A stretch of DNA of 64,000 nucleotides, from contig NZ_JAPHUF010000007.1 in NCBI RefSeq assembly GCF_026196735.1, forward strand, positions 248,001 to 312,000, in the 5' to 3' direction. Below are positions 6,128-39,295 of the stretch, piece by piece. This stretch comes from Sulfurimonas sp. (lineage in GTDB: Bacteria > Campylobacterota > Campylobacteria > Campylobacterales > Sulfurimonadaceae). Every line of letters begins with the position of its first letter. Position 1 is the first letter of the stretch. Below the pieces are notes generated by a model. The model did not search any database and was not told where the DNA came from. It saw only the letters and a program-made list of their open reading frames with translations. Made by a program: the position numbers and the translations under genes.

Positions 6128-6224
6128 TACATGTAACCTTGATAAATAATTATAGAATTGTACAATATTTCAATTACATAACTATTTAATCTTTTGATAA
6201 GCCTTTGAAGAAAAATAAAAATTT

Positions 6225-7112
6225 TTATTTTTGAAGTTTCATCAACATATCCAAAGCGTTCATTTCAAACTTAGAAAATGCAAACCATTTTTTGCCTAAG
6301 TCTTTCAAGCTAGCACCTATATGGTAAAGCTCTTTTTCATCAATTATCAAAAATCTGTCATGTGAAGAGTCAAACTTTTGCAACTCAATTTTTTCATACT
6401 GAGTATTATGTTTTTTTAGGTCTAGTTGCAGCTGTTTTGTGATGTTTTTTGTGTAAATATTAGCTTTGACATGTAGCTTTCTTTTTGAAAGCAAGGTAAG
6501 AACACTATCATCGCAATAGTTGTCAATAAGCACGATACTCACCTTCGCACACTTGATTAGGTCTGACACAAATATATAAGCATCATAGACCTGCCCATCA
6601 TAAAAGATTCCTTGCTTTGGTTTTATGGATTTATCCTCTATGGCATCAAAGAGTTTATTGAATTTTTCATCGTTATTATATTCGTTTAGTATTTGTCTTT
6701 TTTCTAGATTTTCAATTTTTTGAAATAATTCTGCATATTGATTTGAAATTCTTCTCATTTCTACAAAACTTCTAATTATTTTTACGCTTATATCTATTGC
6801 AATTTTACTTTTTAGTATTGCACTAAGCATAGATACACCTTGTTCTGTAAAAACATGAGGGTTTACTGAAGAGTGTTTAAGTCTATTTAACCGGTCACAT
6901 TTTGTGACCAGTTCATCTTTTTCTGCTGTTTTTAACTGAAACCTGAAATCAAATGGAAACCTATCTTCATTTCTTTTGACAGCTTGATTAAATACTTTCG
7001 TTTCAACACCATAAAGCTCCGCCAAATCTCTATCTAGCATCACTTGAAAACCTCGTATAGAGTAAATTTTATTTTTTATAGTATCTTCGTTTATAATTGA
7101 TACTTCATTCAT
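6225..7112 (-). CDS. ORF6N-domain protein with C-terminal phospholipase-D-like segment
   Basis: 295 residues. Residues 10-115 match the ORF6N domain seen in phage antirepressor-like proteins: IYSIRGFQVMLDRDLAELYG, then FPFDFRFQL and HVFTEQGVSMLSAIL. Residues 165-290 look like a phospholipase-D-type domain: VSIVLIDNYCDDSVLTLL, then SHDRFLIID, which resembles the H-x-(K/R)-x4-D core. This combination occurs in chromosomally encoded accessory genes of unknown role. The family suggests DNA binding through ORF6N, but nuclease activity of the PLD half is uncertain because only one HxK-like motif is present. Probably acquired. Confidence 0.7.
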   Translation of the reverse strand: MNEVSIINEDTIKNKIYSIRGFQVMLDRDLAELYGVETKVFNQAVKRNEDRFPFDFRFQLKTAEKDELVTKCDRLNRLKHSSVNPHVFTEQGVSMLSAILKSKIAIDISVKIIRSFVEMRRISNQYAELFQKIENLEKRQILNEYNNDEKFNKLFDAIEDKSIKPKQGIFYDGQVYDAYIFVSDLIKCAKVSIVLIDNYCDDSVLTLLSKRKLHVKANIYTKNITKQLQLDLKKHNTQYEKIELQKFDSSHDRFLIIDEKELYHIGASLKDLGKKWFAFSKFEMNALDMLMKLQK

Positions 7113-7249
7113 AATCTATCCTATATGCTTTTATAGATTATTACATGAAAAAAGGTTTTGGTTTAAAAATATGGCATTTTGTAATGTTTTTATTTTGACA
7201 TGTAGAAAAAGTGGGGATGCCACCCCTGAGATATACTTTTCGGAGTAAG

Positions 7250-7927
7250 CTAAATTGACAAAAATGTTTTCCCTGATAATCCAACCAAGGATAAACCTAC
7301 AAAACGATCAATTTTAGGTCTTAATATTTTATCCATAAATATTTGAAGTTCTGTAATGTCTTCTTTAGACATGAAAGTGGTGAAATCATTAAAAGCAACA
7401 ACTAACATAGTCTTGTTCGGATATTCTATTTTAGATTTTTTTTCTATTGCTTTCAAAATTAAAGCTTTTTGCTCTTCTTTCATGCCAGTATGAGAAACAG
7501 CGATATTTTCAAACTCCACAGTTTGATTGCCACTTGCTTTAGTGCCATTTACAATTATTCCTCCAATTCCAGGAACAGAACCAGTTTTATCTAATTCACT
7601 ATTTCGTAATTTTTCATTATGCCCATTTATAGCGTTTGTAATTTCTATAAATTCAAATTTTTCACAACCATCAACTTTTGCATCATATGATTGATTTCCT
7701 ACTTTTTGATTAATTTTTATTGAGTTGTCTTCAGCAAAAAAATACTTACAAAAAAGGGCTAAAGGGTACGATTCTTCTACAAAAATCTTAATTTCATCAT
7801 ACATCAATAATCGTAAGGATGTCTTTTCTGTTTTTAATGTGAAGTTATCAAATGTGGAAAAAACCCAATCATATATTTCTGAAGGCGATCTTTCAATTTC
7901 AATTTCTTCTTTTGTGATTTTATACAT
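7250..7927 (-). CDS. Unknown protein co-transcribed with SbcCD-type nuclease genes
   Basis: 225 residues, starting three bases after the SbcC-like stop, so almost certainly translated from the same mRNA. No signal peptide or membrane span is obvious. It has a charged N-terminus (EEIEIERSPSEIYDWVFSTF), a glycine-rich middle (GSVPGIGGIIVNGTKASG) and a hydrophobic C-terminus. I do not recognise the family. Its position suggests a link to DNA end processing, but it may equally be a passenger gene. Confidence 0.55.
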   Translation of the reverse strand: MYKITKEEIEIERSPSEIYDWVFSTFDNFTLKTEKTSLRLLMYDEIKIFVEESYPLALFCKYFFAEDNSIKINQKVGNQSYDAKVDGCEKFEFIEITNAINGHNEKLRNSELDKTGSVPGIGGIIVNGTKASGNQTVEFENIAVSHTGMKEEQKALILKAIEKKSKIEYPNKTMLVVAFNDFTTFMSKEDITELQIFMDKILRPKIDRFVGLSLVGLSGKTFLSI

Positions 7928-7930
7928 ATT

Positions 7931-10300
7931 TTACAACTCCACAACTCTTTCAAACATCTCTTTTATCTCCATCTCATGAGATATGATAAATATCTGTCGG
8001 TACTGCTCTTTGATGGTATGAAAAGCTTCTAGTATTTCCATACGGCGGCTCTCGTCCTGACTTCCGAAAACTTCATCAAAAGCCAAGAAGCCTATAGAGC
8101 TTGCTCCGTTTAGTTCTGTGAGTGTTTTTGAGATGGCGATTCTTAAAACAAGGTTTGCCAAGTCTATCTCTCCGCCTGAAAATCTCTCTATCGGGTACTT
8201 TTTGCCCTCATCGTATATGAAGAAATCAAAGTCGTTGCTTACCTCTATGTGTTGGTATTTGCCTTTTGTTATTTGTGAGTACATGTCAGAGGCAATGCTA
8301 GAAATGCGCGGTGCAACTTTTGCGTTTAGTTTTGTTTTAAACTCGGCTAGACTTGTCTTGATTTTCTCATAGTCGACAAGGTCAGCTTTTTTAGATTGGA
8401 CTTTTTTTAGTTGGGCTTCGTTGTTCTCAAGAGCATTTTGTATTGTTTTTATTTCGCCGTCAATCTTTGCTATTTGGACTTTTATCTCATTTATAAATGC
8501 TGTTTTTAACTCTATGGTTTTGAGTATGCTCTCATGTTCTTCAAGCAGATGCTTATGCTTCACATCATCGTAAACTACAGCTTTAAACTCAGCTTCTTTC
8601 TTTTTACATGTAAGAGCTAACTGTTCTATTTTTATAGTCACTTTTACCAGGTCAGCTTTTACGAGTACCACTCTTTTTAGCTCTGTTTCAAGGCTTAGTA
8701 CATGTTTATATTTTGGCTCTATCTCTTTTATAGAGTTTTTCACTTTGACATGTAGCTTTTCATCGTAGTTGTATTGCTCGAATTTTTTTAGCTCTTCTTT
8801 GTTTTTTAGACCTTTTTGCTCAACTATTTTAAAGTGATCTTTTTCTTTTTTCAAGACAGAAAGTTTGCTCTGTATAATGCTTATATTTTTACTAAGCTCC
8901 AAAAACTCTTTATCTTTTGCTTTTTTATCCGCTTCAAATGCCGCTTTTTGAGTCTTGACATTTTCAAGCTGCTTTTTATATTCGTCTATCTTTTTTTTAT
9001 GAGTGTTGTTTACAACTTCCACAAGAGAGTTGATGACATTGTCATACTCATCTAAAAGAGGTCTTGTACATGTAGGACACTCTGGCTCACTTCCAAGCTC
9101 TTTTAATTTTGCTATTTTTTGGTTTGTGATGTCTATCTGTTTTTGCTCGTGCGCCATCTCAGTTTTTAGTTCGTTTTCAATGGTGTGTTTTGTACTTATG
9201 GTGTCTTGAAGTGCAGCAATACTTATCTCTAAGTTTTTTGCATTTACCAAATATTCATCGTACGAAACACAAGCTTTCTCAAGGGAAGTGATGTCTGATT
9301 TGCTTTTTGTGTACTGGTCTCGCAGACTTGCTTGCTCTTTTTGCAGTCCCTCTTTTTTGAGCTGGAACTCTCTTAGTTTATCTTGCTCTTTTAGCTGCTC
9401 TTGCAAGTTTGCATACTCTGTTTTTACATTTGCAAATTTGCTTAGTTCATCTTGCTTGTGTTCTAGTTCATGAAGCTCGGCTGAGAGTTTTACCTGGTTC
9501 ATGATTTCTAAGCTTTTAGAGTTTTTTGCAAGTTCAAGTTCTGAAAATAGTTTTTGTTTCTGCTCTTTGGTTTTAGCAAATACCTCTAGCTCTTTTTTTA
9601 TACTCTGCTCTCTGGTTTTTATATGCTCTAGCTCTTCACTTTTACTCAGCACCTCTTTTTGCTCGGCCTCTTTGGCAGACTCATTGATTTGTATCTGCTC
9701 TTGTTTTGTTTTGACATCTTCGTCACTTAAAAGCACTTCTGCAAATGCGTTTATCTCTCGCTTGATTTCACGGCTCTTTTCTACAAGCTCTTTTTCTATA
9801 AAATCTATCTTCTGAAGTCCTAGAAGTTTTCGTATCATCCTCTTTCTGTCTTCATTTTTTAGAGAGCTTAGGCTTGTCAGCTCTTTTTGAGAAGCAAATA
9901 GCGTATGCATAAAAGCTTCTTTGCTCATTTTTGTGAGGTTTACTATGGCAGAAGTGACTTCTTTTGCTCCTGTAGTAGTTAAGTCGCCATTTTTATAAAA
10001 CTTTGCGTTTGCACTCATAGCTTTACCACGAAATTCTCTGATGACTTTATACTCAGTACCTTCAAACTCAAACTCAAGTTCTACGACAACAGCGTCTTTT
10101 GTACTTGCATTTGAGTTTCTGATAAGTTCTTTGTTTCCTCTATCTTTAAACTCTCCATAAAGGGCAAAAAGTATAGCTTCAAATATGGTAGATTTTCCGC
10201 TTCCGTTTTTGCCAATGATTCCTATCAAGCCTTCACCAAATTCTATTGTCTTAGAGATGTACTTTTTAAAGTTTTCAAGTTTAAGTTTACAGAGTATCAT
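7931..10300 (-). CDS. sbcC: SbcC/Rad50-like ATPase of the DNA-end nuclease complex
   Basis: 789 residues. Walker A is GKNGSGKST near residue 31. Two long coiled-coil arms flank a zinc hook, CPTC, near residue 410. The C-terminal lobe has the ABC signature RFSGGEIDLANL and the Walker B region FLAFDEVFGSQDESRR. With SbcD it forms an ATP-driven nuclease that opens hairpins and trims blocked double-strand ends. It is shorter than E. coli SbcC (about 1,050 residues) and closer to Rad50 in length. It overlaps the upstream sbcD-like gene by 14 bases, showing translational coupling. Cytoplasmic, nucleoid associated. Confidence 0.9.
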   Translation of the reverse strand: MILCKLKLENFKKYISKTIEFGEGLIGIIGKNGSGKSTIFEAILFALYGEFKDRGNKELIRNSNASTKDAVVVELEFEFEGTEYKVIREFRGKAMSANAKFYKNGDLTTTGAKEVTSAIVNLTKMSKEAFMHTLFASQKELTSLSSLKNEDRKRMIRKLLGLQKIDFIEKELVEKSREIKREINAFAEVLLSDEDVKTKQEQIQINESAKEAEQKEVLSKSEELEHIKTREQSIKKELEVFAKTKEQKQKLFSELELAKNSKSLEIMNQVKLSAELHELEHKQDELSKFANVKTEYANLQEQLKEQDKLREFQLKKEGLQKEQASLRDQYTKSKSDITSLEKACVSYDEYLVNAKNLEISIAALQDTISTKHTIENELKTEMAHEQKQIDITNQKIAKLKELGSEPECPTCTRPLLDEYDNVINSLVEVVNNTHKKKIDEYKKQLENVKTQKAAFEADKKAKDKEFLELSKNISIIQSKLSVLKKEKDHFKIVEQKGLKNKEELKKFEQYNYDEKLHVKVKNSIKEIEPKYKHVLSLETELKRVVLVKADLVKVTIKIEQLALTCKKKEAEFKAVVYDDVKHKHLLEEHESILKTIELKTAFINEIKVQIAKIDGEIKTIQNALENNEAQLKKVQSKKADLVDYEKIKTSLAEFKTKLNAKVAPRISSIASDMYSQITKGKYQHIEVSNDFDFFIYDEGKKYPIERFSGGEIDLANLVLRIAISKTLTELNGASSIGFLAFDEVFGSQDESRRMEILEAFHTIKEQYRQIFIISHEMEIKEMFERVVEL

Positions 10301-26869: not shown

Positions 26870-27607
26870 TTACTTCAAACCTGTTTTAATCATCATGCGT
26901 CTAAGATATGCAATTTTACTCTGCAGAGGCAAATCTTTTGGACATACATCCTCGCATCCAAGAAGTGTCATACACCCAAAAACGCCATCTTCATTACCTA
27001 TGAGCTCGTAATACTCTTCGTCACTGCGTTTATCTCTTGGATCTAAATGATATCTGGCTATTTTGTTTAAGCCTACGGCTCCTGTAAATTTTGGGCGCAT
27101 CTGAATGGTACCGCAACCTGCGACACAGCATCCGCACTCAATACATCTGTCAAGCTCATATATCTCATCAGCTAGATCAGGATCCATTCTCTCTTCTATC
27201 TTATCAACATTTAGCTCACTCTCTTTGTCATGTATCCAAGTCTCAAGATGTTCGTTAAGATAACGCATCCACTCACCACTGTATATGGACAAGTCTTTAA
27301 TCAACTTAAAAAGAGGAAGTGGTGCCAGAGTAATGTTTTCATCAAGCTTAGAGGTAAGTGTTCTGCATGCCAGAGTAGGACGACCATTTACAAGCATAGA
27401 ACAGCTACCGCAGATTCCTGCACGACATACAAAATCAAACATTAGTGAATTGTCGTGATGTTCTCGTATTGCATTTAAAACTATATAAAGAGTCATTCCG
27501 TAAGCCTCTTGTATCTCAAAAGTCTCCATGTGTGGAAAATCATCAGGGTCATGCGGATCGAAACGAAGTATGTTTATTTTTAAAAGTCTTGGTTTTTTGT
27601 CACTCAT
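26870..27607 (-). CDS. frdB: Fumarate reductase iron-sulfur subunit
   Basis: Relays electrons from the cytochrome b subunit to the flavoprotein through [2Fe-2S], [4Fe-4S] and [3Fe-4S] clusters. 245 residues. The plant-ferredoxin cluster lies in CRAGICGSC with the fourth Cys in PTLACR. The second and third clusters are in [11 protein letters not shown] and [16 protein letters not shown]. The ATG overlaps the frdA stop by four bases, giving the frdC-frdA-frdB order of Wolinella and Campylobacter. It works at the cytoplasmic face of the inner membrane. Confidence 0.95.
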
Positions 27608-29592
27608 ACATTTTCTCCTAATCTCTCGTTAATACCTTGATATTTTTTAGGTAGTTTATCAATAAATGGCATAAGAGCATTTTGAATCTCCATACGAGAA
27701 GCTCCCTCTTTTTTAAGTTTATCCGTTACAGCATCGACAATGATCTGTCTTGTGTGTGTATCTGTATTGTGCTTTGTCAAATCTTTTCCGTAGCCTCTAA
27801 AACCAGGGGGAAGTTCCATTTTGGATATATCTATATCTTCATAGTTTACCGTTGGAAGGGTCTGCTCTTCATTTTCCCAGCTTGTTATAGTTCTTTTAAG
27901 CCAATTAGCATCATCTCTAGAAGGATAATCTTCTCTAGAGTGTGCACCACGACTCTCTGTTCTTAGAAGTGCTCCATAAGCTACTGTTAACGCAATCTTA
28001 ATCATCTTCTGGGTTCTGTAAGCATTTACCAAAGCTGGATTTGCAGCGCGACTTTTTGAGCGAAATACCTCTATGTTTTTACTTCTTTTTAAGAGTTCTT
28101 CAAGTTCATCTACAGCATCTTTTAAATCGTCACCATTTCTAAAGATTCCGACTTTATCCATCATAATCTCTTCCATACGGCGACGAAGTACATAAGCATC
28201 TTCACCATTTTCTTTTGTTAAAAGTGCTGTTATTTTGTCTTCTTGTATTTTTAAAAATTTTTCAATTGTTGAAGAATGAATATTGATAGAACTCTCCTGA
28301 GAGTCACAAAAATCAGAAATATATTCAGCTACTAACATTCCCGATACTACGGTTTCACTTACAGAGTTTCCGCCTAGTCTGTTAAACCCGTGCAGGTCCC
28401 AGCAAGCTGCTTCACCACACGAGTAAAGACCTTTTAAAGTTTGAGATTCACCTGTGTATTTTGTTCTGATACCACCCATGGAGTAGTGTTGAGTAGGGCG
28501 TACCGGTATCCAATCTACAGCCGGATCTATTCCAAGAAAGTTTTCACAGATTTCTTTTACCTCTCTAAGATTTTTTTCTATGTGTTCTCGTCCAAGTATA
28601 GTTATATCTAGCCATAAATGATCTCCATAGCGGGATTTAACGCCTTTGCCTTTTCTTATATGTTCAGTCATTCTGCGGCTTACAACATCACGAGATGCCA
28701 GCTCTTTTTTTTCCGGCTCATAATCTGGCATAAACCTGTAGCCATCTTTATCTAAAAGAAGTCCTCCATCACCGCGACAGCCTTCAGTAGTCAAAATCCC
28801 AACGGGAACGATTGCAGTTGGATGAAACTGAATTGCTTCCATATTCCCTAAAGTTGCTACTCCTGTCTCAAGTGCTATAGCTTGTCCCATGCCTTGACAT
28901 ATGATAGCATTTGTTGAAACGCTGTAGATTCGTCCATATCCGCCTGTAGCTATAGTTGTTGCCTTGCTTACATATGCTACCAACTCACCGCTCATTAGAT
29001 TCCTCGCAATAGCACCGCAACAGCGTCCATTTTCATGGATTAGTGACATCGCTTCAAGTCTTTCATGAATCTCTACTTTATCTTCATGAGCCTTGTTGTC
29101 CATTGCATAAAGCATACTATGTCCTGTTCCATCTGATGTGTAGCAGGTTCTCCATTTTTTAGTACCACCGAAATCTCTTGCAGTAATAAGTCCGTGAGCC
29201 TCATCTTTTTCTGTAATAGTTACTTTTTGAGCATTAATGATAGCCGTTCTGTCTCCTCGCTTAACTCTACTCCAAGGAACGCCCCAATGTGCCAGTTCTC
29301 TTATGGCTTTTGGAGCACAATGGGTAAACATTCTAGCTACCTCTTGGTCGGCTCCCCAGTCACTTCCCTTGATGGTATCGCTAAAGTGGACATCTTCGTT
29401 GTCACCTTCACCCATTTTTGAATTTGCCAAAGATGCTTGCATCCCGCCTTGAGCTGCTGCAGAGTGTGAACGCTTTGGAGGAACAAGTGTTAGAACAACT
29501 ACATCATGTCCACGCTCTTTAACACCCGTAGCAACCCTAAGACCAGCAAGACCACCACCAATGACTAGTACATCCGTGTAAATAATATTCAT
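27604..29592 (-). CDS. frdA: Fumarate reductase flavoprotein subunit
   Basis: Reduces fumarate to succinate with menaquinol-derived electrons; needed for anaerobic respiration and the reductive TCA cycle. 662 residues, close to Wolinella FrdA. The FAD-binding start is [12 protein letters not shown], and the covalent-FAD histidine segment is [15 protein letters not shown]. The catalytic region includes [21 protein letters not shown] and [11 protein letters not shown]. No Tat signal, so cytoplasmic. It overlaps frdC by one base and frdB by four. Confidence 0.95.
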
Positions 29593-30323
29593 TAATGATT
29601 CTCCATAATAATAGTTTCAGACTTATATTTAACACCATCACTAAAGTCATGTGTATTGCCTATATAAATATATTTTGCTAAAGTGAAAATACCAAGGAGT
29701 AAGTACACAACTATCAAAAACTTCATTAAGAATTTAAATCTTTTTCTTGAAGTTTTTGTACTTTTCCCCTCCATGAATCCCCATTTAAGAGCTAGTCTAT
29801 ATAAGCCTATAAAAGCATGTGTAACAACAGAAAAAAGAAGTAAAAAATACAGAGGCCACATATGCTCTGAAACTACCCTGTATGAACTGGCGTATGGACC
29901 GATATCTGAGGGTTCTGCCATCATCATGTAAAGATGAACCGAACCTATAAAAAACATGATAAAACCTGTTGTTAGCTGAACTATCCATAAAGAGGTGTCT
30001 TCATGTTTCATTCTGATTATATGCTCTTTCATCACCTTGTGCTGCCTATAGTTGTCCGGAAACTTTCTTAGTGCTATAGCTGCATGAATTATAAATATGA
30101 CAAAAATAAATCCTGCTAAAAAAGAGACAATACCCGGATATGTTTCTCCAAAAAAGTAATACCCTTCAAACATAATTGTAACTTTGTACATCAACTCATT
30201 AGATATCAAGATAGATGCCTCAAAGATAAGATGTCCCATAATAAATATGGCTAAAATCAACCCTGTTAAGCTTTGTGTAAAATCTAATTTAGCCGGTGTC
30301 TTGTCTATTTTGTTTTTTTTCAT
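29592..30323 (-). CDS. frdC: Fumarate reductase diheme cytochrome b subunit
   Basis: 243 residues with five hydrophobic helices. It anchors FrdAB and oxidises menaquinol. Four histidines placed as heme b ligands in the Wolinella type can be seen: [28 protein letters not shown] and [12 protein letters not shown]. This marks the type B diheme enzyme rather than the heme-free E. coli FrdCD pair. It is the first gene of frdCAB; the upstream gap to xth is 45 bases. Confidence 0.93.
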
Positions 30324-30368
30324 ATCTTCTCGGTTTTATTTATATGTTTTATTATATTATATTTTGCT

Positions 30369-31145
30369 TTAAATGCTAATTCTTATCCCCACCGGACAGT
30401 GGTCTGAACCTTCTATATGGTCCAATATAAAGGCATCTTCTAAATTTTCGCATAAGTCTTCAGATATAAAGAAGTAATCTATCCTCCATCCGACATTTTT
30501 AAGCCTAGCACTTGAGCGGTAAGACCACCAGCTATATCTATCAACTTCGTCACCGTTAACATATCTAAAGGTGTCTATATAGCCGTGATCAACTAGTTTA
30601 TCAATCCACTCTCGCTCAATTGGCAAGAAGCCTGATGTTTTAGAGTTTGCTTTTGGGTTTTTAAGGTCAATCTCTTTGTGAGCTGTATTTACATCCCCAC
30701 AAATAATTATGCTTTTACCATCTTCCCTTAATGTTTCACAGTGAGATAAAAAATTATCATAAAACTTCATTTTATGAGCTAATCGTTCCTCATCTTTTTG
30801 ACCATTAGGAAAATATACATTAAAAAGTACAATATCATCGTAGTGAGTCTCTACAATTCGACCTTCACTTGTTGTATCCACATGTTGACATGTAGAGTTG
30901 TAGTCAGACTTTAGTGTACCCCAAGTCATAGTCCCGCTATAACCTTTTTTTGTTGCAGAATTAACTAAAATATCTTGGTATTGTTTATCAAATAGATTAT
31001 CGGGAATTTGCTCTTGTAGAGCTTTTATCTCTTGTAGACATAATATATCAGGTTCTCTCTCATCAATCCATTTAAGAGCTTCTTTATTCCCAACGGCACG
31101 AATTCCATTAACATTCCAAGATATGATTTCGATTGAGTTTGACAT
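30369..31145 (-). CDS. xth: Exodeoxyribonuclease III (AP endonuclease)
   Basis: 258 residues. It cuts DNA 5' of abasic sites and removes 3' blocks in base-excision repair. Family motifs are all present: WNVNGIRAVGNK, LCLQEIKA with the metal-binding Glu, FNVYFPNGQ, CGDVNTAH, RIDYFF and the terminal GSDHCPVGI with the catalytic Asp-His pair. The gene sits between frdCAB and sdhABE in the same direction, with a terminator-like hairpin upstream, so it starts its own or the frd transcript. Confidence 0.93.
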   Translation of the reverse strand: MSNSIEIISWNVNGIRAVGNKEALKWIDEREPDILCLQEIKALQEQIPDNLFDKQYQDILVNSATKKGYSGTMTWGTLKSDYNSTCQHVDTTSEGRIVETHYDDIVLFNVYFPNGQKDEERLAHKMKFYDNFLSHCETLREDGKSIIICGDVNTAHKEIDLKNPKANSKTSGFLPIEREWIDKLVDHGYIDTFRYVNGDEVDRYSWWSYRSSARLKNVGWRIDYFFISEDLCENLEDAFILDHIEGSDHCPVGIRISI

Positions 31146-31190
31146 GTAAATTCCATTTTAAAAAATAAGTAGTAGATTAGAGAAAGAATC

Positions 31191-31208
31191 TCCCGCGTAA
31201 ACGCGGGA
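31191..31208 (-). terminator. Terminator of the sdhABE operon
   Basis: An 8-bp perfect stem, TCCCGCGT/ACGCGGGA with a two-base centre, 15 bases after the sdhE stop on the minus strand. It is followed by GATTCTTTCTC. GC-rich in an AT-rich setting. Confidence 0.7.
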
Positions 31209-31222
31209 AAGAAAGAAGTCTA

Positions 31223-32104
31223 TTAAGCGAAGTCAACTTCTGTAACATGATGCTTAAGTCCCAGCTCTGCAGATGTACATCCCAGAGCAAGACCAATCAT
31301 TTGTTGCATATGAAGAACAGGAAGCTCAACTTCACGACCGATAGCTTCAGAAGCATGGTCAGTTTGAGTATCTAGTTTTAAATGACAAAGTGGACAAGGA
31401 GTTACCATCATATCTGCGTTACCATCAACTGCACCGGCAATTGCATTACCTGTTAAAACTGCAGCAGTATGAGGAGCTTGAAGTTCAACATGGAAACCAC
31501 AACATTTGGTTTTCTCTTCATAATCAACATTAACACCACCACAAGCAATAATTAAATCATCAAGTGAAGTAGGGTTGTATGGGTTTTCTTTTGTCTTGTG
31601 AGACTCATTATGAAGCTCAGACGGACGAATATTATGACATCCATAAAATGGTGCAATATTAAATTTGTTTAGAGGCTTAACAACCATCTCTTTAATCTTA
31701 TCAAGACCAAAATCATCAATAATAGCATACAAAAAGTGAGTTACAAGAGAGGTGCCTTTGTACTCTAAGCCAACTTCTGCTAGTTTTTCATTTACCCTAG
31801 CTTTTAGATCAGCATTATTATCTAGTCTATGTTTTGTCATTGCAGTGTTTAACTGACATGTATTACAGATTGTAACCATAGTAAGTTCATGTTTTTCAGC
31901 ATAGGCGATATTTCTTGCATTTAAAACTAAAGATAAAAAGTCATCATAATCCTGTAGGTGAGAAGCTCCACAACAAGAAGCTTCCGTTAGTTCTATCAAC
32001 TCAATATCAAGTTTTTTAGCAACCGCCATTGTAGACATCATTTGCTCAGGAGTACTTTGTTTTGCAGTACATCCCGTAAAAAGTGCGTATTTTAATTTTC
32101 CCAT
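31223..32104 (-). CDS. sdhE: Succinate dehydrogenase HdrB-like anchor subunit (SdhE type)
   Basis: 293 residues with two CCG domains, as in heterodisulfide reductase subunit B and the E subunits of MfrABE/SdhABE enzymes. First domain: CTAKQS, SCCGAS and CNTC. Second: FYGCHN, ACGG, KCCGFH and CPLCH. It has no transmembrane helices and probably binds an unusual iron-sulfur cluster and attaches the enzyme to the membrane for quinone exchange. It is the last gene of sdhA-sdhB-sdhE (gaps of nine and ten bases). The name sdhE here means the HdrB-like subunit, not the FAD-assembly factor. Confidence 0.88.
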   Translation of the reverse strand: MGKLKYALFTGCTAKQSTPEQMMSTMAVAKKLDIELIELTEASCCGASHLQDYDDFLSLVLNARNIAYAEKHELTMVTICNTCQLNTAMTKHRLDNNADLKARVNEKLAEVGLEYKGTSLVTHFLYAIIDDFGLDKIKEMVVKPLNKFNIAPFYGCHNIRPSELHNESHKTKENPYNPTSLDDLIIACGGVNVDYEEKTKCCGFHVELQAPHTAAVLTGNAIAGAVDGNADMMVTPCPLCHLKLDTQTDHASEAIGREVELPVLHMQQMIGLALGCTSAELGLKHHVTEVDFA

Positions 32105-32114
32105 TTAGTGACTC

Positions 32115-33095
32115 CTAGAACTTTACAGTTGATGATGATTTAACAAGTTTTTGAATTTCATCAAGATTATCAGATTTTGGCATATTCCAAGGCATAACTA
32201 TTTTACCTTTTTTGAACATTTTAAATGCAACCGGTATGTGTTTAACAATCCCTGCACCCTCAGAGTATAGAACAAGCTGACCTTCATCAAGCACACCGTG
32301 TTTTTCAATTGAGTGTTTAAATCCAACAGCATGACGAGTAGCTACATTACTTGTTGCAACTCCCTCAGCAAATAACATCTGATGAAGTTTAGTGATTTTT
32401 TCAATTGGGTTAACCTCTTTTGGACAAACTTCAGCACATTCAAAACATTTTACACAGTCCCAAAGACCTTGTTTTTCTTCGTGAAGTTCAAGAAGTCTCT
32501 CTGTATGAGCATCATCACGAACATCAGCTTCAAAACGGTAAGCTTTAGCAAAAGCAGCAGGGCCAAAGAAATCTTCATTGATTTCTACAACAGGACAAGC
32601 GTAGTGACAAGCACCACATTGGATACAAAGATCTGAATCAAGAAGTTCTTCTGATTCTTCCGGTGTTACAATATGCTCGTTTTCTGGGTGCTCTTGGACA
32701 TCAGAGATTAAGTATGGATGAATAGCATCATGCTTCTCCCAGAAATCACCTTTGTCAATGATCATATCTTTAACAGCTCTTTTAGTGCTTAACGGCTCAA
32801 TAGTAAGCTCGTTGCCAAAGTACTCTAGCATTGTTGTCATACTCTCTTTACAAGCAAGAGTTGCACGACCGTTTACTTTGATAGCACATGCACCACAGAT
32901 ACCGTGACGACAGCTACGACGGTAAGAAAAACTACCATCATGGTCCCATTTAATTCTATTTAAAATATCTAAAACAACTTCTTCTGAAGTAACATCCATG
33001 CTGTAGTCTTCATAGTATGGAAGATAATCTTCATCTGCATTAAAACGAAATACCTTGAAGTTTACTTTTTGTGTAGTAATTTTATTTGTACTCAT
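32115..33095 (-). CDS. sdhB: Succinate dehydrogenase/fumarate reductase iron-sulfur subunit
   Basis: 326 residues, longer than FrdB because of a C-terminal extension that meets the HdrB-like subunit. The [2Fe-2S] ligands are in CRHGICGAC with PTLACKES nearby, and the other clusters are in CIQCGACHYAC and CVKCFECAEVCPKEVNP. It passes electrons between the flavoprotein and the E subunit. The start region FRFNADEDYLPYYEDY recurs almost unchanged in the odd protein encoded just upstream at 34997-36073. Confidence 0.93.
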   Translation of the reverse strand: MSTNKITTQKVNFKVFRFNADEDYLPYYEDYSMDVTSEEVVLDILNRIKWDHDGSFSYRRSCRHGICGACAIKVNGRATLACKESMTTMLEYFGNELTIEPLSTKRAVKDMIIDKGDFWEKHDAIHPYLISDVQEHPENEHIVTPEESEELLDSDLCIQCGACHYACPVVEINEDFFGPAAFAKAYRFEADVRDDAHTERLLELHEEKQGLWDCVKCFECAEVCPKEVNPIEKITKLHQMLFAEGVATSNVATRHAVGFKHSIEKHGVLDEGQLVLYSEGAGIVKHIPVAFKMFKKGKIVMPWNMPKSDNLDEIQKLVKSSSTVKF

Positions 33096-33104
33096 AAGTT
33101 CTCC

Positions 33105-34817
33105 TTAGTATGTTCTTGCTTTAAGTTCATGTTTGCCAAGTACTACATCCATGTAATCAAGTGAAATATCACCATTTTCTTTCATATAAGCCATTGTATG
33201 TTTTAGAAAGTTTTCATCATCACGAGTATTAAAGTCCTCTCTAAAGTGAGCACCACGACTCTCTTTTCTAGCAATAGCACTCTCAACAATAAATGCAGAG
33301 TAGTCAATCATATGTCCAAACTCTATTGCTTCTTGAAGTTCAGTATTAAATACTTTTGATTTATCTTTTATGCGAATATTTTTAAATCTAGCACGAAGTT
33401 CTTTGACTTTTTCTACAGCAATTTCTAAAGTCTCTTTAGTTCTAAATGCACCGGCATTAGCCGTCATGCATTGTTGTAGTTCTTCTCTTAAATTTGTAAT
33501 AGTCTCATCCCCATTGTTATTTAACATGAAGTCTATCTCAGCCAAAGCTGTAGCTGCATCTTCTTGTGTAGCTACACGAAGCTCAATATCGTCAACTTCT
33601 TTAACCATTGTTTTTCCAACAAAACGACCAAAAAGTAGAGCTTCAAGTACTGAGTTAGCCCCAAGGCGATTTGCTCCGTGAACTGATACACAAGAACACT
33701 CACCCGCTGCATAGAAACCTTCAACAAATTCAGTGTTATTTTTACGAACATTTCCAGCAATGTTTACTGGTATACCACCCATAGAGTAGTGAGCAGTTGC
33801 AGAGATAAGAATAGGTTCTTTAATCATATCAAGACCTAAAAAAGTGATAGCTAAATCACGAAGTTCAGGAAGCCTTTCCATAATAAGGTCTTTTCCTAAA
33901 TGAGTTACATCTATATAAACTGCATCTTTTCTTGGACCAACACCGCGGCCTTCTCTGATCTCATTAAGGATTGCACGAGAAACAACATCGCGAGATGCAA
34001 GTTCCATCGCATTTGGAGCGTATTTTTCCATAAATCTTTCACCAAGAGAATTGAAAAGTTTTCCACCTTCACCGCGAGCAGCTTCAGAGATTAAAACACC
34101 ATTTCCTGAAAGTCCAGATGGATGAAACTGTACAAATTCCATATCTTCTAAAGGAAGACCGTGTCTTGCTACAATAGATAGTCCATCACCGGTGTTTGCA
34201 TGTGCATTTGAATTGATTTTGTATGAACGAGCATATCCTCCAGTTGCAAACATAACAGATTTTGCATTAAATATTGCCATTTGCATGTCACGGATATTAA
34301 ATGCGATTACACCAGAAACTTTACCGTCTTTGTAGATGATATCAGCAGCGTACCACTCATCCCAAAATTTTACACCGGCACGGTGAGCTTGCTCATAAAT
34401 AGTTTGTAATAGTGTAAGACCGGTTCTGTCTTTAGCGTAGCATGCACGAGGTGATGACTGTCCGCCAAAAGGTCTTTGAGCAATTTTTCCATCAGCAGTT
34501 CTGCTAAATGCTGCACCCATTCTCTCCGCCCAGCGAATAGTCTCCGGAGCTTTTTCGCACATAAATGAAACAGCATCTTGGTCTGCTAAATAATCAGACC
34601 CCTTAACTGTATCATACTCATGCAATTCAACACTATCTTCATCACTAAAAGCAGCATTAATACCACCTTGAGCAGCACCTGAGTGGCTTCTAAGTGGATG
34701 AAGCTTAGTAATAACAGCGACCTTCTTCCCTGCGTTTTGTAACTCTCTTGCAGCAGCACAGCCGGCAAGACCTGCTCCTACAATAACGGCATCGTAAGTA
34801 TAAATGGGAATACTCAT
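33105..34817 (-). CDS. sdhA: Succinate dehydrogenase/fumarate reductase flavoprotein subunit
   Basis: 570 residues. FAD fold [16 protein letters not shown], covalent-FAD histidine segment [10 protein letters not shown], and active-site segments [30 protein letters not shown] and [10 protein letters not shown]. No twin-arginine signal is present, unlike periplasmic MfrA of Wolinella and Campylobacter, so this SdhABE complex should face the cytoplasm and most likely oxidises succinate. It is the first gene of the operon, divergent from the cofactor-free paralogue gene 179 bases away. Confidence 0.93.
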
Positions 34818-34958: not shown

Positions 34959-34996
34959 TCAACCTTATTTTTATTATAAATATTGCAAGGAAAGTC

Positions 34997-36073
34997 ATGA
35001 TAAAAGAAGTACATGTAGAACTGTTTAGATTTGACTCTAAAGTTGATTATTTACCATATTATAAAAAATACACTCTTGAGTACAAGGATAAAGATACGAT
35101 TCTTAGTCTATTGAATAAAATAAATTCTATAGAAAAGTTTGCATATGAGCCTAGTGTTGATTTTAATCTAAAGATAAATAATCTATATTTAAACTCAAAC
35201 GAGTTTATAGCTAACATAGTGGATAAAACATCGAATGAATTTATTATTGAACCGATAAGTAAATTTAGAGCTATCAATGATTTAATTATTGATAAGAAAG
35301 ATTTTTTACAAAAGATAGCTGCATTTGAGAGTTATCTAACTTCTATGGACATGGATAAGTATGCAAAAAATTATGAACTAGATTATTATGCATCAAATAC
35401 ATACAATATAAAAAGAGATTACATCGGAGATCACTCTTTGCTCATTGCTAGTGATATAATTGAGCAAAATCCTGAACTTACAGATGAAATATTAGAAATG
35501 ATATCTAAAAAAGATGATGGTATTTGGTATCACACATCGTTAGAAAATAGAGTTTTTAACTATGATGTTACTAAAGAGCACAAGATAAAAGCTCTTTTTG
35601 CAAAGCTAAAAAAAGTTCAATTTTCCGGTATAGACAACTCTAGCGTCGATAGCATAGATAATGTAGATATATCTCAATACTTTGAAGGTTTCAATGTAGC
35701 ATCGTATGATGGCTTAGATAAAAGCTCTTGTGCCTCTGTTATAAAAGATTCAAAAGCAAACTACATAGATATAAGCTTAAAGAGTGAAGATTTGGCACCG
35801 CACTCAACTCTTGTAAGTGATGACTTTTCATTGAAAATAGCGGGAGAAATTTTACTTCAAGCTAAAGATAACAACGCTGATTTTATTGTTGTTAGAGGAA
35901 AAAAAGATATTTTGCTGTTTGATGGAGAACAGAGAAAAATTGAAAAAACAACAGGCAGAGAGATAAATCTACCGGTTGTTTCTCAAGAACAGTTTAAAAG
36001 ACTTTTAGAGGGAGATAAAGATACAGCCGCAATGGGCTTGGATAGCCATAAAGTAAAGGTTTCTTTCTTATAG
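34997..36073 (+). CDS. Cysteine-free SdhB/SdhE-like chimeric protein
   Basis: 358 residues from the ATG at 34997 (AAGGAAAG upstream); an in-frame ATG at 34949 precedes the likely -10 box. Residues 4-111 follow SdhB: FRFDSKVDYLPYYKKY beside FRFNADEDYLPYYEDY, and IEPISKFRAINDLIIDKKDF beside IEPLSTKRAVKDMIIDKGDF. Residues 128-211 follow its bacterial-ferredoxin part (KKDDGIWYHTS beside EKQGLWDCVKC). Residues 228-358 follow the second CCG domain of SdhE (FNVASYDG beside FNIAPFYGC, GREINLPV beside GREVELPV). Every cluster cysteine is gone; one cysteine remains in the whole protein. It cannot carry electrons; assembly, regulation or decoy roles are guesses. Confidence 0.8.
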   Translation: MIKEVHVELFRFDSKVDYLPYYKKYTLEYKDKDTILSLLNKINSIEKFAYEPSVDFNLKINNLYLNSNEFIANIVDKTSNEFIIEPISKFRAINDLIIDKKDFLQKIAAFESYLTSMDMDKYAKNYELDYYASNTYNIKRDYIGDHSLLIASDIIEQNPELTDEILEMISKKDDGIWYHTSLENRVFNYDVTKEHKIKALFAKLKKVQFSGIDNSSVDSIDNVDISQYFEGFNVASYDGLDKSSCASVIKDSKANYIDISLKSEDLAPHSTLVSDDFSLKIAGEILLQAKDNNADFIVVRGKKDILLFDGEQRKIEKTTGREINLPVVSQEQFKRLLEGDKDTAAMGLDSHKVKVSFL

Positions 36074-37267
36074 CTCATCCTCTGCTATATCTCTTATCTG
36101 AGTGATTTTGTTTGTCCATTTGGCTTTAGAATACGCTAAAACTTTTTTTGCTTCTCTTGATGCTTCTTCAAGAGAAACATTATTTGGTTTAATAACAAAT
36201 CCACCACTTATGGTTACCGTTACGGGACCTGTTTGAGCAGATTTTAATTTTAATTCAGAGATACTTTGACGAATAATATCTACATCTTTAAAAGACTGTT
36301 CCTTGCTTGGACGAGAAAAAATAAGTGTAAATTGATTGTAGTCTGTTCTAGCTATAACATCAGTAGCTTGTTCATGCAGTGAAATAGTAAAAGCAACTTT
36401 TTTTAGTATACTTTGTGTAAATTCTTGAGAGTATATTCTGTTGGTTTTTGAGAAATTATCGATTTCAATTACGGTCACAGATGTAAAATTACCCTCTTTC
36501 ATACCTTTTTTCTCAGAATAAGAGTTCATCATTCCTTTAAGATTGTTAAGCCCTGTAATAGGATCTAACATAGATGGATTATCAGAAGTGGTTGGCTTTC
36601 TTCTCATTCTAAGAGCGATAGAATCTACTTCTTCAGAAAATATAGTAAAGTTTTTTTGATCAACATTATACAGATATTTTATATCGGCGTATATTACGCT
36701 AAGTCTTTTTCTGTACCAAATAACACCCAATAAGATTACTATAAACGAGATGTATGACACTATCTTTTGAAATTTAAATTTAGATTGGTCGTAGTATAAG
36801 CTTTTTATCATTATAGAATCAATTTGATTATTGATAGAATAAAATATCTTATCTAGCTCTTGTTTTTTTATATCATTGTTTTTTTCATCTTTAGAGTAAT
36901 ATTCATGCGCTTTATCGTTAAATAAAGTAGTTAGTGAATCTAATTTTTCCAAATCAGATAAGTATTCCTTTTCATTTGAAACAATAAATTGTTCCGTAAA
37001 ATTGTACTTGTAAGAGTTTTTTAATTTTTCAATATCAGTGTGAAGTTGAGTGCTTTTTCCATTAAACTGTATCAAGGCAAGCTCAATATCATCCCTTGAT
37101 AGATGGATTAGACTAGAAAGAATGGCTTTTTGATTCTTTAAATTATCTATTTTATCATATGAAGTGCTTTGCTGTGATGTTAAAAATGCTTCAGATGCAC
37201 TAAATAGAGCTAGAAAAATAAGGAATATTGATAAATTACTAAAAATTTTTTTAATTGAGTGTTTCAT
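36068..37267 (-). CDS. Membrane protein with degenerate GGDEF domain
   Basis: 399 residues. N-terminal membrane anchor (IFLIFLALFSA), a periplasmic helical sensor segment (about 33-165), a second membrane helix (IVSYISFIVILLGVIWY), then a GGDEF-fold domain from LDPITGLNNLKGMM. The active-site loop reads RTDYNQF where R-x-GGDEF is expected, so diguanylate cyclase activity is improbable, though the fold could still bind partners. It converges with the SdhB/SdhE-like gene, overlapping its stop by six bases. The signal it senses is unknown. Confidence 0.78.
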   Translation of the reverse strand: MKHSIKKIFSNLSIFLIFLALFSASEAFLTSQQSTSYDKIDNLKNQKAILSSLIHLSRDDIELALIQFNGKSTQLHTDIEKLKNSYKYNFTEQFIVSNEKEYLSDLEKLDSLTTLFNDKAHEYYSKDEKNNDIKKQELDKIFYSINNQIDSIMIKSLYYDQSKFKFQKIVSYISFIVILLGVIWYRKRLSVIYADIKYLYNVDQKNFTIFSEEVDSIALRMRRKPTTSDNPSMLDPITGLNNLKGMMNSYSEKKGMKEGNFTSVTVIEIDNFSKTNRIYSQEFTQSILKKVAFTISLHEQATDVIARTDYNQFTLIFSRPSKEQSFKDVDIIRQSISELKLKSAQTGPVTVTISGGFVIKPNNVSLEEASREAKKVLAYSKAKWTNKITQIRDIAEDEL

Positions 37268-37354: not shown

Positions 37355-38176
37355 TTGAATTTAGAAAATTATTTTATATCGCAATTTAAAAGCAATCATA
37401 TCGGAGATGACGGCGCAGTAATTAAAAAATCTGTGTATACCAAAGATGCATTTTTTGAAGATGTTCATTTTAAGAAAAAATGGATGAGTCATTATCAAAT
37501 TGCATCTAAGGCGATGCTGATAAATATTTCCGATGCTATTGCTATGAATGCTAAACCAAAATACGCACTTTTAAGTGTTGCTATGCCTAAAAATATCACA
37601 AAAAAAGAGATGAAAGAGCTAGTTGCCGGTTTTAAAGATGTGGCCGATAAGTATGGAGTTGAGATTATAGGTGGTGATACGATAAGTAATATCAAGCTAG
37701 ATATTACTATAACAATAATTTCTCAAACAGATAAGCCGTTGCTTAGAACTAAGATAAGAAAAGGTTATTTACTTGGCTTTACCGGCGAACTTGGAAAAAG
37801 TGCAAAGGATTTGAAAAAGCTTGTTAACCTAGGTAAAATTCATAAAAAATCCAAATTTGTAGATATTAAACTAAGAGACAAATTTGTATCAAACTGTGAG
37901 CGGTTTTTGAGTTCAGGTATGGACATATCAGATGGTCTCTTTAGTGATTTAGATAAACTTTCATCAGCAAACAAGATAGGTTTTAGATTTAAAGGCTACA
38001 TGTCAAAGCATATAGGGTGTAGTGGAGAAGAGTATGAGATGCTTGTTGCATTTGACAAAAGAGATGCAAAAGCTGTAGTGAGGCGTGCTGCTCAGAGCAG
38101 AACACCTCTGACTATTTTTGCAAGCAGTGTTAGAAACAGATATACAAACAGGTGTAAAGCACACCATTTTAATTAG
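37355..38176 (+). CDS. thiL: Thiamine-monophosphate kinase
   Basis: Phosphorylates thiamine monophosphate to the active cofactor thiamine diphosphate. 273 residues, shorter than E. coli ThiL (about 325) but with the ATP and magnesium motifs: GDDGAVI near residue 18, FFEDVHF, NISDAIAMNAKP, GGDTI near 108, and SSGMDISDGLFSDL near 190. It starts at a TTG (37355); AAGAAG lies a few bases upstream. It leads a thiL-truD-psd gene string. Confidence 0.88.
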   Translation: MNLENYFISQFKSNHIGDDGAVIKKSVYTKDAFFEDVHFKKKWMSHYQIASKAMLINISDAIAMNAKPKYALLSVAMPKNITKKEMKELVAGFKDVADKYGVEIIGGDTISNIKLDITITIISQTDKPLLRTKIRKGYLLGFTGELGKSAKDLKKLVNLGKIHKKSKFVDIKLRDKFVSNCERFLSSGMDISDGLFSDLDKLSSANKIGFRFKGYMSKHIGCSGEEYEMLVAFDKRDAKAVVRRAAQSRTPLTIFASSVRNRYTNRCKAHHFN

Positions 38177-38203
38177 AACTATTTATGATTAAGGACTTAC
38201 AAT

Positions 38204-39295
38204 ATGGATAGATTTTATTCACTGAACCACTCTTCAATTGACTTTCTTTTTAAACAGACTCCACGGGATTTTGTTGTTGAAGAATTACCTCTGTATGAAT
38301 TTTCAGGTGAGGGTGAGCATCTCGTTTTGTTCGTAAGAAAAAAGAGTCTCTCCACGCTAGAACTGGTAAGTTTGATTGCTAAATATTTAGGAATTAAAAA
38401 CAAAGAGATAGGCTATGCCGGACTAAAAGACAAGCATGCCATGACAAAACAGTATATATCTATACATAAGCAGTATGAAGAGGCTATGGAGAATTTTTCG
38501 CATGATAATGTGAAAATCATATCAAAGACATATCATAATAATAAAATCAAAACAGGACACTTAAGAGGTAATAGATTTTATATTAAACTCAAAAAAGTTA
38601 ACCCAACTTCTGCACAAAAAATAGATGAAGCTCTTAAGAATATATCTAAAGACGGTATGCCAAACTTTTTTGGTTATCAGCGTTTTGGAAATGATGGCGA
38701 TAATCATATAGAGGGTGAGAAGGTTGCAAAAGGTGAGAAAAAAGAGCGAAATCCAAAGATAAAAAAATTACTGATTAATGCTTATCAAAGTCATCTGTTT
38801 AATCTTTGGCTTAGTAGAAGATTAGAGATAAATACACTTGTTCAAAACTTTAAACCCCAAGAGCTGGAATCGCTCTTAAATATGCCAAATAGTGAACTTG
38901 TTAGCATGAAAGCACAAAAGCATCCATTTAAGCTTATCAGTGGCGATATTATGGAGCATTATCCACATGGTAGACTTTTTGATTTTGATGGGAAAGAGGA
39001 TGATTGTAAAAGATTTAATGACAGAGACATCTCTCCAACAGGACTTTTATGCGGTAAAAAAGTAAAACAATCTTCAGGTAGTGCAAGGCTTATCGAGAAA
39101 GATTTTGATGATGAGATTAATGCTGATGGAGCTAGAAGATATGCCTGGGTATTTCCAGAAGAGGTAGAGGGCAGGTTTAAACCAATTGAAGCGCAGTATG
39201 AACTTAACTTTTCACTTCCAAAGGGTTCGTACGCAACTGTGCTGATTGAAGAATTAGCAAAGAGAAAAATAAATGATAAGAAAGATATTAGATGA
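38204..39295 (+). CDS. truD: tRNA pseudouridine(13) synthase
   Basis: 363 residues. It converts U13 of certain tRNAs to pseudouridine. The family signature around the catalytic Asp is GYAGLKDKHAMTKQYIS near residue 72. The conserved NFFGYQRFGN segment is near 150, and the inserted TRUD domain follows (KLLINAYQSHLFNLWLS). It lies 27 bases after thiL, and its stop overlaps the psd start by four bases. Confidence 0.95.
   Translation: MDRFYSLNHSSIDFLFKQTPRDFVVEELPLYEFSGEGEHLVLFVRKKSLSTLELVSLIAKYLGIKNKEIGYAGLKDKHAMTKQYISIHKQYEEAMENFSHDNVKIISKTYHNNKIKTGHLRGNRFYIKLKKVNPTSAQKIDEALKNISKDGMPNFFGYQRFGNDGDNHIEGEKVAKGEKKERNPKIKKLLINAYQSHLFNLWLSRRLEINTLVQNFKPQELESLLNMPNSELVSMKAQKHPFKLISGDIMEHYPHGRLFDFDGKEDDCKRFNDRDISPTGLLCGKKVKQSSGSARLIEKDFDDEINADGARRYAWVFPEEVEGRFKPIEAQYELNFSLPKGSYATVLIEELAKRKINDKKDIR

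Follow-up and report, generated by a model that had tools for sequence, protein, structure and literature searches.

A cofactor-free SdhB/SdhE paralogue of the DUF5644 family beside the sdhABE operon of a Sulfurimonas species

Introduction

What is a gene whose product resembles two subunits of the operon next to it and lacks all of their cluster cysteines, and what may this product do? The question is raised by a locus in Sulfurimonas sp., within a stretch of 64,000 nucleotides (contig NZ_JAPHUF010000007.1, positions 248,001 to 312,000) that was analysed as a whole and is called the window here. A first-pass annotation, made from the letters of the DNA, had read the gene as a redox-dead fusion of SdhB and SdhE and had proposed that it serves the neighbouring SdhABE complex as a scaffold, an inhibitor or a switch. 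We have followed up this reading by profile and structure comparison, by a survey of Campylobacterota genomes, and by analysis of trees and substitution rates.

Results

The locus and the start of the gene

The features considered here are as follows.

31223..32104, minus strand: genuine sdhE carrying two CCG domains; paralogue of the parent type for aa 219-358 of the protein under study
32115..33095, minus strand: genuine sdhB carrying 12 cluster cysteines; paralogue of the parent type for aa 1-210
33105..34817, minus strand: sdhA of the cytoplasmic type, without Tat signal and oriented divergently to the DUF5644 gene
34987..34993, plus strand: Shine-Dalgarno-like AAGGAAA, just 5' of the ATG at 34997, read from the sequence
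34997..36073, plus strand: DUF5644-family protein, a cofactor-free SdhB/SdhE fusion of 358 aa (Pfam, PDB search, profile-profile comparison, AF2 model)
34997..35626, plus strand: SdhB-like part, aa 1-210, a 2Fe-2S ferredoxin-like domain from which the Cys loop has been deleted, and then a Cys-free helical ferredoxin domain
aa 111-204, plus strand: DUF5644 proper, the helical ferredoxin domain of the window protein
35651..36070, plus strand: SdhE/HdrB-like part, aa 219-358, corresponding to CCG domain 2 but devoid of cluster Cys
within 35651..36070, plus strand: HdrB-like_C match, aa 275-352
37355..39295, plus strand: thiL (AIR-synthase related) and truD, landmarks found conserved next to the DUF5644/sdhABE locus throughout the order

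The divergent orientation relative to sdhABE is as first described, with 179 bp separating the starts of the DUF5644 gene and sdhA. We place the start at ATG 34997, where AAGGAAA stands upstream and the N-terminus of the family aligns; GTG 34949 was rejected, as the extension is not common to the relatives. A promoter scan gave no more matches than were found in shuffled sequences. A GGDEF-like gene (36068-37267, minus strand) converges on the DUF5644 stop with a 6-bp overlap, and the same gene stands between sdhA and thiL also in congeners without DUF5644.

The sdhABE genes of the window do not encode an 8-methylmenaquinol:fumarate reductase (MFR), since SdhA has no Tat signal and SdhB and SdhE score far under the MFR equivalog cut-offs. 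The frdB-frdA-frdC and sdhE-sdhB-sdhA sets share one 8-kb stretch (26870-34817, minus strand) with only an exonuclease III-like gene between them, so that two complex II enzymes are encoded side by side.

SdhB and the second CCG domain of SdhE in one chain

In the Pfam search, the window protein matches Fer2_3, the 2Fe-2S domain of SdhB, on aa 7-104 (34.8 bits, cut-off 27) and DUF5644 (PF18712) on aa 111-204 (29.7 bits, gathering threshold 25), while a match to HdrB-like_C on aa 275-352 stays under the Pfam cut-off (E 6.4e-6). In NCBIfam, SdhB models come out best (E about 1e-9), all far below their cut-offs; TIGR00384 SdhB, for example, gives E 1.9e-9 and 37.3 bits against a curated cut-off of 88. 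Among PDB sequences only one matches clearly (E 1.9e-19), that of 3KWL, an H. pylori protein of 514 residues and unknown function with a structure available since 2010.

Profiles were compared by hhalign. The family profile of aa 1-210 and a cytoplasmic SdhB profile align over 206 columns (E 2.5e-33); for the C-terminal 137 residues and the second half of SdhE, the alignment spans 133 columns (E 2.8e-16). The controls (SdhA, ThiL, TruD, a GGDEF-type protein and swapped halves) give E 0.02 or worse. An AF2 model built from 31 family members (pLDDT 91.4, pTM 0.85) superposes on 3KWL with Z 28.1 over 347 aligned residues; its aa 1-208 match FrdB (1qlb_B, Z 17.1) best among the FrdB/SdhB chains, and aa 214-358 match HdrB (5odc_B) with Z 16.2. 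Profile and fold matches thus agree that one chain combines counterparts of the two SdhB domains and of CCG domain 2 of SdhE, which is the architecture first read by eye, and the landmarks on which that reading was based are all found in the window protein: FRFDSKVDYLPYYKKY, IEPISKFRAINDLIIDKKDF, DDGIWY, FNVA and GREINLPV. A chance resemblance to SdhB/SdhE is ruled out by the Pfam and NCBIfam scores, the profile comparison and the fold matches. It is therefore nearly certain that the window protein is a cofactor-free SdhB/SdhE paralogue of the DUF5644 family.

Loss of the cluster ligands

The absence of the cluster cysteines of both parents is borne out. With 12 cysteines conserved in 18/18 cytoplasmic SdhB proteins as the reference, the window protein retains none of the 12 ligands of the three SdhB clusters, and its lone cysteine (SSCASV) is at no cluster position. 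The 2Fe-2S loop is deleted, and the cluster cysteine sets are gone in all 31 relatives; stray cysteines occur at only two SdhB ligand positions, in a few relatives and never in the window protein. In the SdhE-like part there is no CCG motif, the second-domain cysteine positions are substituted, the first CCG domain is missing, and PF02754 gives no match. CCG is changed to SDG in several split partners (see below), and a stray cysteine is left at one SdhE ligand position in a few relatives.

The replacement residues are themselves conserved (C157 of SdhB is Tyr in 28/31 relatives, and C167 is Ser in 28/31), which argues that the loss is old and settled. As judged from its sequence, the window protein cannot carry electrons as its parents do, in agreement with the redox-dead reading.

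Two-gene and one-gene forms

The family is not always encoded by a single gene. In the Arcobacter-like (f10), several Helicobacter-like (f2), some Campylobacter-like (f3) and the f13 genomes, two adjacent genes are present instead, encoding an SdhB-like protein of 212-270 aa and an SdhE-like protein of 234-303 aa. A profile of the latter, built from f3, f10 and f13, aligns with SdhE over its full two-domain length (279 columns, E 6e-36). Two kinds of fusion are found: the form of the H. pylori group, of about 500 aa, keeps both CCG-like domains, and the window form, of about 350 aa (358 aa here), is without the first. Since the split relatives keep both SdhE domains, the window gene is a fusion that has lost the first CCG domain. 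The tree calls for five or more switches between the fused and the split state, which suggests that the two halves act together as one unit. In several loci (L076 8701-8704, L069 8243-8246, L054 8063-8065, L053 7972-8021) the split genes adjoin directly or share a few bases, a pattern expected of coupled translation.

Origin and selection

In the trees, each half of the family forms one clade (support 100/100), apart from SdhB/FrdB/MfrB and SdhE/MfrE, respectively, and both halves attach nearest to cytoplasmic SdhB and SdhE. DUF5644 is hence an ancient, single-origin paralogue of the sdhB-sdhE pair, and the kinship with the neighbouring operon stands. As the B-like gene precedes the E-like one, just as in sdhBE, block duplication of sdhBE appears to be the simplest origin.

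The birthplace was probably the thiL/sdhABE/sor locus, where sor denotes the superoxide reductase gene (Desulfoferrodox, PF01880). In one genome (L105) truD-thiL faces sdhA-sdhB-sdhE-sor, in another (L072) it faces DUF5644-sdhA-sdhB-sdhE-sor, and in four more (L054, L053, L074, L089) thiL faces the split DUF5644 pair with sor directly after. The parsimonious reading is that DUF5644 outlived sdhABE in the Arcobacter and Campylobacter lines. The superoxide reductase gene follows sdhABE (L105, L072, L081) or the DUF5644 pair (L054, L053, L076, L089) in several families, a placement that would be compatible with a tie of the locus to oxygen stress. In f5 genomes there is a second SdhE-like/SdhB-like set, diverged in sequence, next to a further complex II cluster that includes an SdhA-like gene (for example L094, G040 C2), and similar second matches are seen in G006, G028, G039 and G224.

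We have calculated dN/dS for the window gene against two congeners (0.13 and 0.15) and for two other pairs (0.11-0.13); true sdhB and sdhE give 0.09 and 0.04. Values of 0.11-0.15 indicate that the DUF5644 gene is maintained by purifying selection, and a pseudogene is thereby rejected. That the family is a decaying relic of duplicated sdhBE genes is accordingly very improbable: the catalytic ligands are lost, the fusions have lost the first CCG domain and the distribution is patchy in some families, but these dN/dS values, together with the occurrence of the gene in 190 of 298 genomes and nine families, and in every f10 genome, refute it.

Distribution in Campylobacterota

We have surveyed 298 Campylobacterota genomes with a family-specific profile (A2). 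DUF5644 was found in 190 of them, belonging to nine families, and is universal in f10 (17/17). Not counted are 25 weak matches (E 1e-7 to 1e-4), of which those checked are genuine SdhB (G105, G003, G266); weak matches were still counted for a 356-aa frame beside truD (G257) and for three genomes with a PF18712 match too (G236, G014, G022). In G285, the PF18712 matches on contig 19 (L043) were not reproduced by phmmer, and a genuine copy is located next to sdhABE on contig 9.

SdhE occurs in 116 genomes, comprising 44 with the periplasmic MFR type (f2, f3, f10) and 72 with the cytoplasmic type; typing was based on the Tat signal of representative SdhA proteins and extended from the representatives to the families, and the f2, f3 and f10 enzymes were assigned to the periplasmic MFR type (PMC2680327). 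In two Campylobacter-like genomes the MFR-type sdhE match contains one in-frame TAA (G102 C1:411007-411855 and G194 C1:1908109-1908957). In G279 (L082, around 6200-9000), where DUF5644 is present, no intact sdhA ORF is called beside sdhE, and sdhA may be disrupted.

Cytoplasmic sdhABE is absent from 175 of the 190 DUF5644 genomes (92%) and present in 15, and 136 of the 190 lack any SdhE, the periplasmic MFR type included. Conversely, DUF5644 is absent from 57/72 genomes (79%) with cytoplasmic sdhABE. The association is thus inverse, with DUF5644 in 15/72 genomes with and 175/226 without cytoplasmic sdhABE (Fisher 8e-18), and so it is by genus (8/28 versus 26/30, Fisher p 1e-5). The counting was done by hand from lists, and with related genomes not being independent these p-values overstate the case, while the direction is clear. 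In the window genus, 4/18 genomes have DUF5644 and 17/18 have sdhABE.

When both are present, they tend to be close: the two are directly adjacent in 11 of the 15 genomes and share a locus in 13. This adjacency is in part an inherited locus, because thiL-truD adjoins sdhABE also in genomes without DUF5644. In the window genus the DUF5644 gene diverges from the operon; in f4, f6 and f7 it stands before sdhA in the same direction, and in two loci (L007, L008) it is convergent and lies beyond sdhE. In f6 it overlaps sdhA by 4 bp (G007) or closely precedes sdhA in the sdhABE operon (G117). In the lineages without sdhABE, its neighbours (pepF, murA, an HNH nuclease, rsmD/flgI) show no common function or pathway.

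SdhB/FrdB is present in 296/298 genomes. The DUF5644-bearing genome G148, without FrdA/FrdB, was considered and rejected as proof of independence from complex II, since the frd region is missing jointly with its flanks, most likely through an assembly gap. In the draft genome G174, where DUF5644 is present, no SdhB/FrdB was found and an SdhA-like match lies under the cut-off.

Discussion

Relation to known proteins

The window protein belongs to the same family as DUF5644 (PF18712) and 3KWL. We take 3KWL to be HP0468, on the basis of tables in papers and of the gene order pepF-HP0469-DUF5644-HP0467-HP0466. Proteins of the HP0468 type carry DUF5644 and HdrB-like_C, and the 3KWL type (about 500 aa) retains both CCG-like domains whereas the window type (358 aa) lacks the first. 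With SdhB/FrdB (TIGR00384), the window protein shares the fold, the two-domain alignment and the landmark motifs, but it has no Cys at the 12 ligand positions, its 2Fe-2S loop is deleted, and it scores 37 bits against 88. Similarly, its C-terminal half has the fold of the second CCG domain of SdhE, the anchor of type E complex II, and of HdrB (PF02754), while in DUF5644 proteins the CCG motif is replaced (by SDG in split partners) and the cluster cysteines are lost.

The order of an SdhB part and an HdrB part in one chain is found also in TfrB, of the CoM/CoB fumarate reductase (NF004898, which scores 34.5 bits on aa 3-123, in the SdhB part of the window protein). TfrB, however, is a catalytic subunit with clusters and the window protein is cluster-free, and the fusion is probably separate from that of TfrB, since DUF5644 relatives are split. 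To the flavinylation factor SdhE (YgfY)/SDHAF2 (PF03937) there is possibly an analogy only, as a protein free of redox cofactors that docks on the flavoprotein where SdhB does; the sequences are unrelated, with no PF03937 match in the window protein.

What is already known is the family as DUF5644, with the Pfam HdrB-like_C match as a hint at the C-terminal half. The two-gene form in many relatives, in which an SdhB and a full-length SdhE are both cofactor-free, is new. In the open-licence literature we found no paper describing DUF5644 as a cofactor-free SdhB/SdhE pair, and nothing on Cj1459 as the C. jejuni locus of DUF5644, which is our guess for that locus.

What the protein may do

With its fold retained and all metal-binding sites gone, the DUF5644 protein probably holds or guides other proteins rather than carrying electrons, and it may act as a scaffold, inhibitor or switch for the complex II flavoprotein generally (FrdA or SdhA). 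Such a role for SdhABE in particular, as originally proposed with divergent expression, is unlikely. In its favour, the gene stands directly next to sdhABE in 11 of the 15 sampled genomes that carry the two, and in the same locus in 13; but adjacency is in part inherited, 92% of DUF5644 genomes lack cytoplasmic sdhABE and 79% of sdhABE genomes lack DUF5644. As a general function, the SdhABE-specific role is therefore largely refuted, and this by the very observation that the first-pass annotation had named as fatal to it, occurrence of the gene in many genomes that lack sdhABE; a lineage-specific role could survive. Of the first reading, then, the chimera, the full cluster loss and the kinship with the neighbouring operon hold.

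A broader reading, which we favour but regard as tentative, is a redox-silent docking module or placeholder, perhaps for complex II flavoproteins (FrdA/SdhA). The DUF5644 pair would have been kept for protein docking after the loss of all Fe-S and CCG cluster ligands. Its SdhB-like half would still show the surface that SdhB/FrdB uses to grasp the flavoprotein (SdhA, or FrdA in genomes without sdhABE), so that the cluster-free placeholder could hold, mature or reserve the flavoprotein until the real Fe-S subunit takes over, while the SdhE-like half would anchor or position it. This docking is suggested by 18 positions that are conserved in both SdhB and DUF5644 while the ligand positions are lost (F10, R11, F12, D17, Y22, P86, D95, D102 and F103 among them), and by the overlap with, or closeness to, sdhA in the f6 operon; the common positions may, on the other hand, serve the fold alone.

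A precedent is offered by E. coli, where the assembly factor SdhE, which is unrelated to the anchor SdhE of the window operon, binds FrdA on the surface used by FrdB and promotes covalent flavinylation, to which FrdB itself contributes (PMC5773532). PF03937, the model of this factor (SdhE/SDHAF2), is absent from 121/121 Campylobacterota genomes. The precedent and the absence of the factor in the phylum make a cluster-free SdhB mimic on FrdA/SdhA attractive. Carried furthest, DUF5644 would be the complex II flavoprotein maturation factor of Campylobacterota, a mimic that holds FrdA/SdhA and aids covalent FAD attachment until the real Fe-S subunit displaces it; this stronger version we consider doubtful. 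Thermophiles without the SdhE/SDHAF2 factor flavinylate unaided (PMC9557727), and the absence of DUF5644 from 57/72 sdhABE genomes and from whole Frd-bearing genera (g15, g17, g25) argues against a general requirement for it in the assembly of complex II.

About equally likely as the complex II placeholder is that the fold pair was co-opted after duplication as a redox-silent scaffold or adaptor of another complex, with contact to complex II lost. This would fit the retention of the gene in 175 genomes without cytoplasmic sdhABE, the inverse association by genera (8/28 versus 26/30), and its location next to pepF in Helicobacter-like genomes and next to murA in f7. In H. pylori, HP0468 is reported to be upregulated by H2 (PMC6090961), and it is listed among the proteins enriched in species with sheathed flagella (PMC9570263); these hints can be listed for another complex, but they fit neither the placeholder nor the other-complex model specifically. 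Against a role in another complex, the neighbours of about 45 loci include no conserved alternative partner gene, and DUF5644 adjoins sdhABE in most genomes having both. A further idea, that the remodelled cluster sites bind another ligand or cofactor and the protein itself works as a sensor or an enzyme, could draw on the conserved new residues at former ligand positions (Tyr122 and Ser133, each in 28/31) and on the GIxxH motif and C-terminal His common in the alignment. It seems improbable, as no conserved set of metal-binding residues was found and, apart from the SdhB/HdrB relatives, no enzyme family came up in Pfam, NCBIfam or the PDB.

Overall, these results give an ancestry to a conserved protein of unknown function that is widespread in Campylobacter, Helicobacter and their relatives, major gut pathogens included. 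Two respiratory subunits have been stripped of all cofactors and retained for another job, and a redox subunit pair has turned into a non-redox module that outlived its source enzyme. The finding bears on complex II maturation in a phylum without the usual flavinylation factor: if the maturation model is true, paralogue mimicry by DUF5644 would do here what SdhE/SDHAF2 does elsewhere.
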